From: Nitrososphaeria archaeon | GTDB taxonomy: Archaea; Thermoproteota; Nitrososphaeria; JACIWG01 | DNA: 64,000 nt | Reading direction: 5' to 3' | NCBI GenBank assembly: GCA_029776065.1 | Contig: JARVJP010000011.1 | Location: 340,961 to 404,960, forward strand | Shown here: positions 33,135 to 36,001 of the stretch, one piece after another | Layout of the letters: each line of letters starts with the position of its first letter | Numbering within the stretch: position 1 is the first letter of the stretch | Position numbers and translations under genes: made by a program | Notes under the pieces: model-generated | Databases searched by the model: none | Seen by the model: the letters and a program-made list of their open reading frames with translations, nothing else | What the model was told of the DNA's origin: nothing

Positions 33135-34718
33135 ATGCATTTTAATTCAGAAAACGACGAAGGTAATGTAGAATATAAGCTCAAATTAACCTCAGTTGAT
33201 AGAGACCGGCTTAACGAGCTTGCCACACAACTCAACTACCGCGTTAATGAAGGAGGTGGCGAAGCCTTTTACGACCTAGGGGTAACGGATGAAGGTGAAC
33301 TACTAGGCCTTGACCCAAAAGAAGCTAAAGTCACCTTCAAAAATTTCGACAAAATATGTAAGATGATCAATGTCTCCTATACAATTATTAGATCGGTTGA
33401 AGGCAAAAAAGGAACTGTTTACGAACTCCTTGTTAGAAGAGTCGCTGAAACCCTCCCAATCTCAGTCTCGCTAGTATTTGTTGGTAACGCTGACGCTGGG
33501 AAATCATCCATAAAGGGTGCCCTTGTTTACAATGTTCTAGACGACGGCGACGGATTAGCGATGAGCAAGGTTGTAAGATACATCCACGAAATAAAGATGC
33601 GGAGAACTTCAGCCGTCAACACGCATATTCTAGGATTCGATATCCTCGGTAACTGTGTGAACTCAGACTTGATCAACTACAGTGAAAGCGAAATATACTT
33701 AAAATCTTCCAAAGTTTTAAACTTGATCGATCTTGCCGGTCACGAGAAGTATCTTAGAACCACACTAAGAGGCATACTTGGAAACCTTCCTGATTATGCT
33801 GCCCTGATTGTCGCTGCTAACTCCGGTGTAGTTGGGACGTTCAAAGAGCATCTAGGAATCTCTCTTGCTTTAAAAATACCCGTGTTCATATGCCTAACCA
33901 AAATCGATATTACCCCTGAAGAGAAGATTAGAGAAACCTTAGATGATATAATAAAAGTTCTCAAGCTTCCAGGTGTAAATCAGATTCCCTACTTAGTGAA
34001 GTCTAAGGACGACATCGTCCTCGCTGCTAGGCACATAAAGAGTGGACGTGTTGTACCAATCTTCACCATCTCTAATCTAACAGGCTACGGCCTACAAGAC
34101 TTGAAAGCTTTTTTGAACATCATCCCACCAAGGATATCATGGAAGGAATGCTACGAGAGGGCATTCAAATTTTATGTGGATGAGATATTCAATGTAACGG
34201 GTGTGGGGACCGTGGTTAGCGGCTTGGTGGAAGAAGGCGCTGTGTCTGTTGAGGATGAAGTGCTGGTAGGTCCCTTTGAGGACGTAAGAAACTCATTTAA
34301 AAAGACGAAGATTAAAGGCATTCAAATAAACCGAGTCTTTGTAAAGAGGGCCTTTGCAGGCCAAAGCGCAACATTCGCAATTCCGTCTATCGAGTATAGT
34401 AAGCTTAGGAAAGGGATGGCCGTACTGGATAAGAACCTGTCCCCTGATCCAGTAAGAACTTTTAAAGCGCAGGTTAAAGTCCTACATCACCCTACAACCA
34501 TGAGAGTTGGGTATACCCCAGTCATCCACGCCCATACCATAAGACAGACAGCTAAAATCATCGAGATGAGCAAAGAGGCATTGCGGACCGGTGACATAGC
34601 TGAAGTCACCTTCAAGTTCATTATGCGCCCCGAATACCTTGAAAAAAATGAGACGTTCGTGTTCAGGGAGGGGAAGACACGGGGAATAGGCACAGTACAG
34701 GAAACCTCGAACGATTAA
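33135..34718 (+). CDS. GTPBP1/EF-Tu-related translational GTPase
   Basis: A protein of 527 residues related to eukaryotic GTPBP1/GTPBP2 and archaeal EF-1alpha-like GTPases. After a 110-residue N-terminal domain, the G motifs are GNADAGKSSIKGAL (G1, about 117), LIDLAGHEKYLRTTLRG (G3, about 198) and CLTKIDITPEE (G4, about 255). EF-Tu-type beta-barrel domains (VGTVVSGLVEEG, and RTGDIAEVTFKF near the end) follow. G1 reads GNADAGKSS in place of GHVDHGKTT, as in GTPBP1. The ATG at 33135 follows a TATA-like stretch (aaatatatag) by about 15 bases. It may act in ribosome rescue or mRNA surveillance. Confidence 0.82.
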   Translation: MHFNSENDEGNVEYKLKLTSVDRDRLNELATQLNYRVNEGGGEAFYDLGVTDEGELLGLDPKEAKVTFKNFDKICKMINVSYTIIRSVEGKKGTVYELLVRRVAETLPISVSLVFVGNADAGKSSIKGALVYNVLDDGDGLAMSKVVRYIHEIKMRRTSAVNTHILGFDILGNCVNSDLINYSESEIYLKSSKVLNLIDLAGHEKYLRTTLRGILGNLPDYAALIVAANSGVVGTFKEHLGISLALKIPVFICLTKIDITPEEKIRETLDDIIKVLKLPGVNQIPYLVKSKDDIVLAARHIKSGRVVPIFTISNLTGYGLQDLKAFLNIIPPRISWKECYERAFKFYVDEIFNVTGVGTVVSGLVEEGAVSVEDEVLVGPFEDVRNSFKKTKIKGIQINRVFVKRAFAGQSATFAIPSIEYSKLRKGMAVLDKNLSPDPVRTFKAQVKVLHHPTTMRVGYTPVIHAHTIRQTAKIIEMSKEALRTGDIAEVTFKFIMRPEYLEKNETFVFREGKTRGIGTVQETSND

Positions 34719-34758: not shown

Positions 34759-35196
34759 ATGCGACTTAACCTTTCTGAAGAAAGCATCATAAACGCGAAG
34801 AGCGCTTTAGAAATCCTTTTCCCTGACAAGAGATCTAGAATTGCAGCTAAACTCCTTCTAGAATGGATGAAAGAAAACAAAGGAAGAGCCACCAAGAACG
34901 CGTTGAATAACTTCTCAAAGAGGCTAGAAAATAAAGAGTTAATGTATGGTAACTCTCCATTTAAGTATAGCCGGAGAAATCTGTATGGGACTGTGATAAA
35001 GAACTTGGTGAAGCTGGGGTTCCTGCAGAGGAACGCTCCTATCTGGGATGAAAGAATGCAGAAAACTTTGAAGGTGTACCAGATACAGATCTTTGATATA
35101 CCTAACAAGCCTCCAGCAATCGGATTTTGGAGGTTATCATATTACGTATGCAGAAAATGGAATGAGGAATTTGCATACTTCACCCATGAGCAATAG
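34759..35196 (+). CDS. Uncharacterised basic protein, possible winged helix
   Basis: I do not recognise this 145-residue protein. It is basic and mostly helical. Residues 1-60 look like two or three helices (SAKSALEILFPDKRSRIAAKLLLEW in outline), followed by LYGTVIKNLVKLGFLQRN (about 78-95), which reads like the recognition helix and wing of a winged-helix domain. The last third is aromatic (WDERMQKTLKVYQIQIF, FWRLSYYVCRKWNEEFAYF). It starts 40 bases after the GTPase gene and is probably co-transcribed. A T-run (35235-35240) follows, and then the structured RNA. A link to that RNA is possible but unsupported. Confidence 0.5.
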   Translation: MRLNLSEESIINAKSALEILFPDKRSRIAAKLLLEWMKENKGRATKNALNNFSKRLENKELMYGNSPFKYSRRNLYGTVIKNLVKLGFLQRNAPIWDERMQKTLKVYQIQIFDIPNKPPAIGFWRLSYYVCRKWNEEFAYFTHEQ

Positions 35197-35280: not shown

Positions 35281-35304
35281 CAGCTGTTGTTAGTTATGTA
35301 TCAA

Positions 35305-35595
35305 GCTCATACGTCCTCTGCAGAAAGTTGAAGCATCTGCATTTGAACAGCCAACGAGCGTGCATCTGCCATCCGGAGGGTGGATGTGGGATATCCACTG
35401 TTCAAATGCTCTTGTGGAAACAATCTGCTCCTGAGGAAATGAACTTCAAATCGTCAAGCCGACCACAATCTGTGGCTTAGGCAACTAAGTCACCGAAAGC
35501 AGATGGGTTGACCTGAAGCCTTCGGTTAAAAACAGAAAGTGGAAAGCAAGATGGTAAGAAGATCGGCTCCCTAGGAAAAAAAAGGGCGTATGAGC
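35305..35595 (+). ncRNA. Structured RNA, about 290 bases, family unassigned
   Basis: A 13-bp helix closes the whole element (35305-35317 with 35583-35595, one U-G). Inside are a perfect 12-bp helix (35339-35350 with 35398-35409) holding smaller hairpins, and a 9-bp hairpin with a GCAA tetraloop (35472-35493). An 8-position helix with one mismatch (35453-35460 with 35505-35512) stacks on CUUCA/UGAAG (35444-35448 with 35514-35518). The G-U pairs at 35314/35586 and 35475/35490 become A-C mismatches on the opposite strand, so the RNA is on the plus strand. There is no open reading frame over it, and it is richer in G+C than the flanks. A P1-like closing helix, GAGGAAA (35433-35439) and AAGAAGAUCGGCU (35556-35568) recall RNase P RNA, but no convincing P4 pairing was found. 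It is not a recognisable SRP RNA. Confidence 0.65.
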
Positions 35596-35605
35596 CTTCT
35601 AATCA

Positions 35606-36001
35606 TTAATCGCCTTGAATAGTCTGTAGAGTTGCGAATAAGGCGCCAAGTTGCGCACTTAGATTTTTGTTTTCTAAGGTGTCAAAGTATACCTGAAGTA
35701 TTTTCACCATCTTCAAGAGGTCTTTTTTAGCGCCTCTCATCAAGTTCTCAAGTTCCTCCTTTCCTCTCGGCGTTATTATGTATTTGGGATATCTCTCGTT
35801 TTCAATTATCAATTTTTTAAGATAGTTTTTAGATTCTAATTCGTTAGTAATGTAGTATATCGAGCCTGGACTTGGTTGCCACATTCCCCCGGTCTTCTCA
35901 GATAGATTTTTTATTAAAGTTACCGCCGATAAGGGTGCCCTCGATGCCTCCTTGAGGATTATCGTCTTCAGAAGCCCTGTCGGCACATTTAGTGTTGCCA
36001 T
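35606..36001 (-). CDS. PadR-family transcription regulator
   Basis: A winged-helix DNA-binding protein of 131 residues. Features are KTIILKEASRAPLSAVTLIKNLSE (helices 1-3), PSPGSIYYITNELESKNYLKKL (recognition helix, about residues 40-61), and the wing YPKYIITPRGKEELENL. A C-terminal helix (about 95-131) would form the dimer. It starts with ATG at 36001 and is divergent from the cupin gene at 36102 across 100 bases, so either gene may be its target. The gene ends 10 bases from the structured RNA, on the opposite strand. Confidence 0.78.
   Translation of the reverse strand: MATLNVPTGLLKTIILKEASRAPLSAVTLIKNLSEKTGGMWQPSPGSIYYITNELESKNYLKKLIIENERYPKYIITPRGKEELENLMRGAKKDLLKMVKILQVYFDTLENKNLSAQLGALFATLQTIQGD

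Follow-up and report, generated by a model that had tools for sequence, protein, structure and literature searches.

The locus and its neighbours

A gene for an RNA of about 296 nt adjoins a PadR-like gene in a Nitrososphaeria archaeon, within the 64,000-nt stretch of DNA that was analysed here and that we call the window. The features of the locus are listed in Table 1. The RNA gene is matched over its full length by our models R1 and R2 (258.8 and 245.4 bits, respectively, in its own genome), the window sequence being part of the training sets of both, and it is present as a single copy in that genome. The preliminary description had placed a TATA-like box at a suitable distance from the RNA, and this element was recovered: RATAAAA is kept at the position of AATAATAAAA throughout the five genomes of the window's family, while in a second family of genomes, described below, CTTAGATA is found at about -32 in three of four. 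Transcription of the RNA would presumably start from this box. As previously noted, the region is free of crossing reading frames: no ORF of annotated length crosses the RNA in the window, and no reading frame is conserved across the relatives. A protein-coding region was rejected, the frames being broken and unconserved among relatives.

The gene that precedes the RNA is an ORF of 145 amino acids, which is 77% identical to an ORF of a relative (G004). Both follow a gene for an EF-Tu/EF-1A-like GTPase (33135-34718 in the window), and the ORF and the GTPase gene form a conserved gene pair. On the other side, the PadR gene borders the RNA in the five genomes of the window's family, with 57-65% identity between the PadR orthologues, and this tail-to-tail arrangement is kept in every one of them although more distant genes differ on both sides (sister genus).

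Table 1. Features of the RNA locus (positions in the window)
Feature	Position	Strand	Remarks
145-aa ORF	34759-35196	+	no Pfam match; gene preceding the RNA
TATA-like element AATAATAAAA	35271-35280	+	about 28 nt upstream of the RNA 5' end
RNA gene	35303-35598	+	ends estimated from P1 and from where conservation stops (alignments A4 and A11)
P1 closing helix, 5' strand	35305-35317	+	13 bp; 100% of cells paired in the window's family
5' arm	35319-35428	+	helices 2-5 of the five-sequence structure
Self-complementary hexamer UCCGGA	35372-35377	+	within the apical loop (8 nt) of the 5' arm; candidate kissing-loop site
3' arm	35429-35579	+	helices 6-9; 90-100% of cells paired, 9 pairs with compensatory change
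RCAA-loop hairpin	35474-35491	+	consensus helix of 7 bp, at the three-way junction
Apical hairpin of the 3' arm	35492-35526	+	loop GAUGGGUUGACCUGAAGC at 35502-35519
P1 closing helix, 3' strand	35583-35595	+	partner of 35305-35317
PadR-like regulator gene	35606-36001	-	Pfam PF03551, E 7e-10; tail to tail with the RNA

Fold and conservation in the window's family

The large structured RNA proposed at 35305-35595 is real, as judged from its folding energy, nine homologous sequences and compensatory changes. Its predicted minimum free energy is -120.3 kcal/mol, whereas dinucleotide shuffles give -80.8 ± 5.5 (z -7.15) and not one in 100 folds as well. The overall plan is a closing helix, P1, that encloses two long arms; P1 has exactly the position and length first given for it, and a 13-bp helix at a comparable span occurs in none of 100 shuffles of the region. 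The 5' arm is made, in order, of an outer stem, an internal loop, a second stem, an internal loop, a third stem and an apical hairpin. The third stem corresponds to the 12-bp helix that had been called perfect (35339-35350 with 35398-35409); this helix exists in the window, but an internal loop interrupts it in the relatives. After the apical hairpin, at 35387-35396, lies GGAUAUCC, a short stretch of self-complementary character that is present in all nine RNAs, with GGGAUCCC or GGGGACCCC at the same spot in others, and that may form a 3-bp hairpin or an extra contact (helix 7 of the nine-sequence structure).

The 3' arm is a long imperfect stem (35435-35455 with 35550-35570 and 35463-35473 with 35532-35542) that leads to a three-way junction. 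One of the two hairpins at its end had been described as a GNRA-capped hairpin of 9 bp. When the window sequence is taken alone the helix does have 9 bp (35472-35480 with 35485-35493, hairpin 35472-35493) and a GCAA loop, but the loop is RCAA in the relatives, hence not strictly GNRA; in the window's family 100% of the cells of this hairpin are paired, two of its pairs show compensatory change and three vary one-sidedly. The loop GAUGGGUUGACCUGAAGC of the other hairpin is invariant in the five genomes of the window's family and absent from the second family, so it does not belong to the core of the whole RNA family. Two further proposals fared less well. In the relatives the two strands of the suggested pseudoknot (35423-35428 with 35499-35504) read GUUUCC and GUGGAU, which leaves five of six pairs, three of them G-U, and one mismatch, and the pseudoknot is thus not conserved; helix 2 better explains its bases. 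The CAUCUGC or AAUCUGC repeats are indeed found at 35334, 35363 and 35422, with the complementary GCAGAU at 35499, but these copies are not conserved.

A DNA search of 61 genomes matched the RNA in all four other genomes of the window's family and nowhere else. These genomes are archaeal metagenome-assembled genomes, and each carries one full-length copy. Gene order in the family is partly conserved, with insertions, and many of the window's neighbours lie on a single contig of G004. The full-length copies, the shared PadR neighbour and the gene order point to vertical inheritance, not mobility. RNAalifold predicted 100 pairs from the five sequences; 95.8% of the cells are paired and 21 of the 100 pairs show double-sided compensatory change, in a structure derived from the very sequences that are scored, four of the five being closely related. 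In controls in which the partner strand was slid by one to three columns, 38-46% of the cells were paired and one to three pairs changed on both sides, and none of 500 shuffles reached the observed share of paired cells or the observed double-sided count. Each of the four relatives has 8-12 G-U pairs and 0-1 A-C pairs, and the RNA is therefore placed on the plus strand, as G-U pairs had first indicated. Judged by these alignments, the RNA structure is under selection.

A second family of carriers and the identity of the RNA

Model R1 gave a weak match, of 20 bits and limited to the 5' arm, in genome G013, which belongs to a second family of the class; about 328 nt around the match adopt a two-arm fold closed by a helix of their own (z -3.5). 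A DNA similarity search with this copy found none in the sister genomes G010, G040 and G056, and loci were therefore fetched via the neighbouring gene, which encodes a protein of 253 amino acids. In G010 and G040 (loci L060 and L061, chosen solely through this protein gene and thus independently of R1) an RNA of about 300 nt with the same plan lies upstream of the 253-aa gene, beside prs. When R1 was run unfiltered on the three loci its best match was the 5' arm in each (20.0, 19.8 and 15.3 bits), and the matches in G010 and G040 (19.8 and 15.3 bits) are on the correct strand and inside the closing helix. Model R2, built on eight sequences (the five of the window's family and three of the second), then recovered a full-length copy in G056, a genome outside its training set, with 105.8 bits (E 1.9e-28). 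The second-family form measures 300-327 nt and has the closing helix, the 5' arm and the strand of the window RNA in all four genomes.

Compensatory changes are also found when this family is considered alone (in three sequences 34 of 108 pairs change on both sides), and a structure-blind MAFFT alignment of eight sequences keeps eight P1 pairs in all eight, four of them compensatory. With nine sequences both sides change in 39 of the 69 pairs, against 7-15 in slid controls, in an alignment that was fitted to the model and hence leans towards the structure. The nine outer pairs of P1 are paired at 96% across the nine sequences, six of them with compensatory change. The covariation is genuine, but the nine sequences come from two families and some are nearly identical, so that they do not each count as independent evidence. 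Best shared between the families are P1 and the 5' arm, including its stems, internal loops and apical hairpin; the 3' arms of the two families could not be aligned with confidence.

The surroundings of the RNA differ in the second family. At four loci (L060, L061, L077 and L058) it lies beside prs, the gene for PRPP synthetase, and usually upstream of the 253-aa gene; in G013 an OB-fold Ssb-like gene is present in addition to prs. In this family prs is divergent from the RNA and the 253-aa gene is downstream. In G056 the RNA, next to prs, is on a different contig from the 253-aa gene, and a transposase-like ORF is found upstream of that gene (locus L059, oriented, 715-1428), at the place where the relatives carry the RNA.

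These arrangements bear on the idea that the RNA acts in cis, either by regulating the convergent PadR gene, as an antisense RNA or from its 3' side, or as the leader of a downstream gene. The RNA ends 8-40 nt from the PadR stop codon, on the opposite strand, in the five genomes of the window's family, and in G013 it ends about 40 nt upstream of the 253-aa gene, which is on the same strand; both observations fit such a role. However, PadR is not beside the RNA in the second family, which renders an antisense action on PadR unlikely since the RNA is kept there, and the conserved feature is an intramolecular structure, which antisense pairing does not need. As for a leader, the gap to the downstream gene varies in the second family (about 40-250 nt), and in G056 the RNA and the 253-aa gene are on separate contigs, with the transposase-like ORF before the latter. 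A leader or riboswitch was also rejected in view of the convergent 3' neighbour in one family and the variable distance to the downstream gene in the other. We consider a function in cis unlikely, and the PadR neighbour is probably not part of the function of the RNA. Because the neighbours differ between the families (PadR in one, prs and the 253-aa gene in the other), we infer that the RNA stands alone and would act in trans.

The RNA is present in all nine sampled genomes of the two families, and no credible match was found in the other 391 sampled genomes of the class; a 14-bit match in family f11 (G314) is to a short hairpin and was taken as chance. In 398 genomes of the phylum R1 found the window's own copy and one match of 13.6 bits (G673), again a short hairpin attributed to chance. 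These large scans used strict filters and R1 overlooked the second family in one of them, so that more divergent members could have escaped. Weak R1 or R2 matches in genomes of families f2, f4 and f7 were discarded as lying inside coding sequence. Unfiltered scans of PadR loci in other families of the class gave nothing above noise, and the gaps next to PadR in these families show no shared RNA fold, two of them holding a tRNA-like fold. The latter are in family f6 (L038, 1229-1458, and L039, 1235-1449), where a cloverleaf-like, tRNA-like sequence downstream of PadR is unrelated to the RNA. No match to the RNA was found in phages and plasmids; a pattern match on a viral contig (L022) lies within a capsid gene and was dismissed as chance.

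The RNA of a decayed or active mobile element, for example an omega RNA or an intron, would likewise be structured and non-coding and could have different neighbours in two families. Against this, the RNA is a single-copy gene in the window's genome, local gene order is kept within each family, no nuclease or transposase gene adjoins it in the window, phages and plasmids gave no match, and the one pattern match on a viral contig is the chance one in a capsid gene. A mobile origin is in our view highly improbable.

The alternatives first offered for this RNA were a strongly divergent RNase P RNA and a new RNA class. In its favour, the former has a similar length, a closing helix that could be P1 (the catalytic core would then be in the 3' arm) and a string resembling AAGAAGAUCGGCU near the 3' end. 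However, this string is found in the window only and is not conserved in the relatives, and the genome carries a standard, full-length archaeal RNase P RNA elsewhere (G000:C3:224867-225147, 187.4 bits for a cut-off of 84). It also carries its own SRP RNA (G000:C3:267793-268102, 113.9 bits for a cut-off of 96.5), and the window RNA is thus neither of the two. Searches of the window with cmscan against Rfam 15 gave no match at gathering thresholds, and over the RNA region only chance matches at E <= 10, none of them to an RNase P model; no Rfam match at E <= 1 covers the RNA at the second-family loci. Matches to the CR-I and CR-V consensus need at least three mismatches in all nine sequences while the genome's own RNase P RNA needs two and three, in a comparison that is crude. 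The RNA is not the RNase P RNA of the cell, and that it could be a divergent version or a duplicate of it is next to inconceivable. SRP RNA was rejected as well: RF01857 does not match and the SRP locus is a separate one.

A modification guide, or another RNA that base-pairs with ribosomal RNA, is very improbable. The loop region of the 5' arm has a 13-nt complement in 16S rRNA when G-U pairs are tolerated, but chance alone should yield about one such match at this size, 23S, SRP and RNase P RNAs contain no complement of at least 13 nt, and no guide-RNA family of Rfam was matched, save a chance snoRNA at E 9. Rfam 15 includes the OLE, ROOL and GOLLD families, and none of these shows Rfam similarity to the window RNA. 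No description of the RNA family was found in the open-access literature, the scope of our search. The nine homologues in two families, the extensive compensatory change and the lack of any Rfam match, archaeal RNase P and SRP models included, agree with the second alternative: on sequence evidence this is a previously uncatalogued archaeal RNA family, the family being what is new, with no claim that the mechanism is.

The 5'-arm loop, proposed working and known counterparts

The apical loop of the 5' arm, of 7-9 nt, contains a self-complementary hexamer that is in register in all nine sequences. The hexamer is CCCGGG in eight of them and UCCGGA in the window, a switch that preserves self-complementarity. 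Cryo-EM of OLE and GOLLD has revealed symmetric kissing loops, recognised by changes from one palindrome to another (PMC12286853). Since our hexamer is palindromic and palindrome switches mark the kissing loops of OLE and GOLLD, its conservation suggests by analogy that the RNA may form kissing-loop dimers. The homodimer through the 5'-arm loop is tentative, and we would not expect it on balance. A simpler alternative is that the two outer nucleotides of the hexamer form one more intramolecular pair, C-G or U-A, closing a CCGG tetraloop that may perhaps be recognised by a protein; the switch from C-G to U-A is also explained by such a pair.

This alternative leads to a scaffold or decoy RNA whose action would consist solely of protein binding, without any dimer of the RNA. 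The apical hairpin of the 5' arm and its internal loop are the parts best conserved between the families, as expected of a protein site, and the CCGG loop can form a closed tetraloop. On the other hand, a search for kink-turns found no canonical box-C-like motif common to the nine sequences. Action by protein binding alone is a serious possibility, although the chances are somewhat against it.

We propose the following working for this RNA. The gene, single-copy and independently transcribed, would give rise to a structural RNA of about 296 nt of an uncatalogued family, in which P1 would hold together a compact body bearing two long arms. The RNA would work in trans as a folded scaffold, bound either to a partner protein or to another molecule of the same RNA; in the latter case the two copies would pair via the exposed self-complementary hexamer of the 5' arm. 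That we are dealing with a scaffold RNA that stands alone, acts in trans and is inherited vertically, and not with a riboswitch, a leader, an antisense, a guide or a mobile-element RNA, seems to us reasonably probable from the comparison of the loci. The full proposal of a new archaeal RNA of which two copies are joined by a palindromic kissing loop of the 5' arm, in a small RNA-based homodimer, remains doubtful. The prediction is nevertheless specific, a loop-loop dimer or a protein bound at the 5' arm, and can be addressed with an in vitro transcript of about 300 nt.

Beyond rRNA, RNase P RNA, SRP RNA and modification guides, the large structured RNAs known from archaea are few. The RNA described here comes with the support usual for a new RNA family, namely homologues, compensatory changes and a model able to recover a member outside its training set; its lineage is represented here by metagenome-assembled genomes alone. 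It resembles archaeal RNase P RNA (RF00373) in its length near 290 nt, its terminal closing helix and its single-copy gene, but shows no covariance-model similarity to it, and no P4, CR-I or CR-V elements were found in the window RNA. With archaeal SRP RNA (RF01857) it shares a length of about 300 nt, paired 5' and 3' ends and a two-domain rod. The evidence is of the type used for the trans-acting candidates of Weinberg et al. (2010; PMC2864571), covariation in an intergenic RNA that stands alone and is confined to a narrow lineage; many of their motifs are in Rfam 15, of which no family matches the window RNA. Like OLE, ROOL and GOLLD (PMC12286853), it is stand-alone, lineage-restricted and highly structured, with little or no known function, but it is archaeal, not bacterial, about half their length or less, and has no OLE-associated proteins adjoining it. 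In OLE and GOLLD loops that covary as palindromes are shown symmetric kissing loops, whereas the window RNA has a candidate palindromic loop only; if the homodimer is true, it would be an archaeal counterpart of the RNA-only quaternary assemblies described so far for the bacterial OLE, ROOL and GOLLD.
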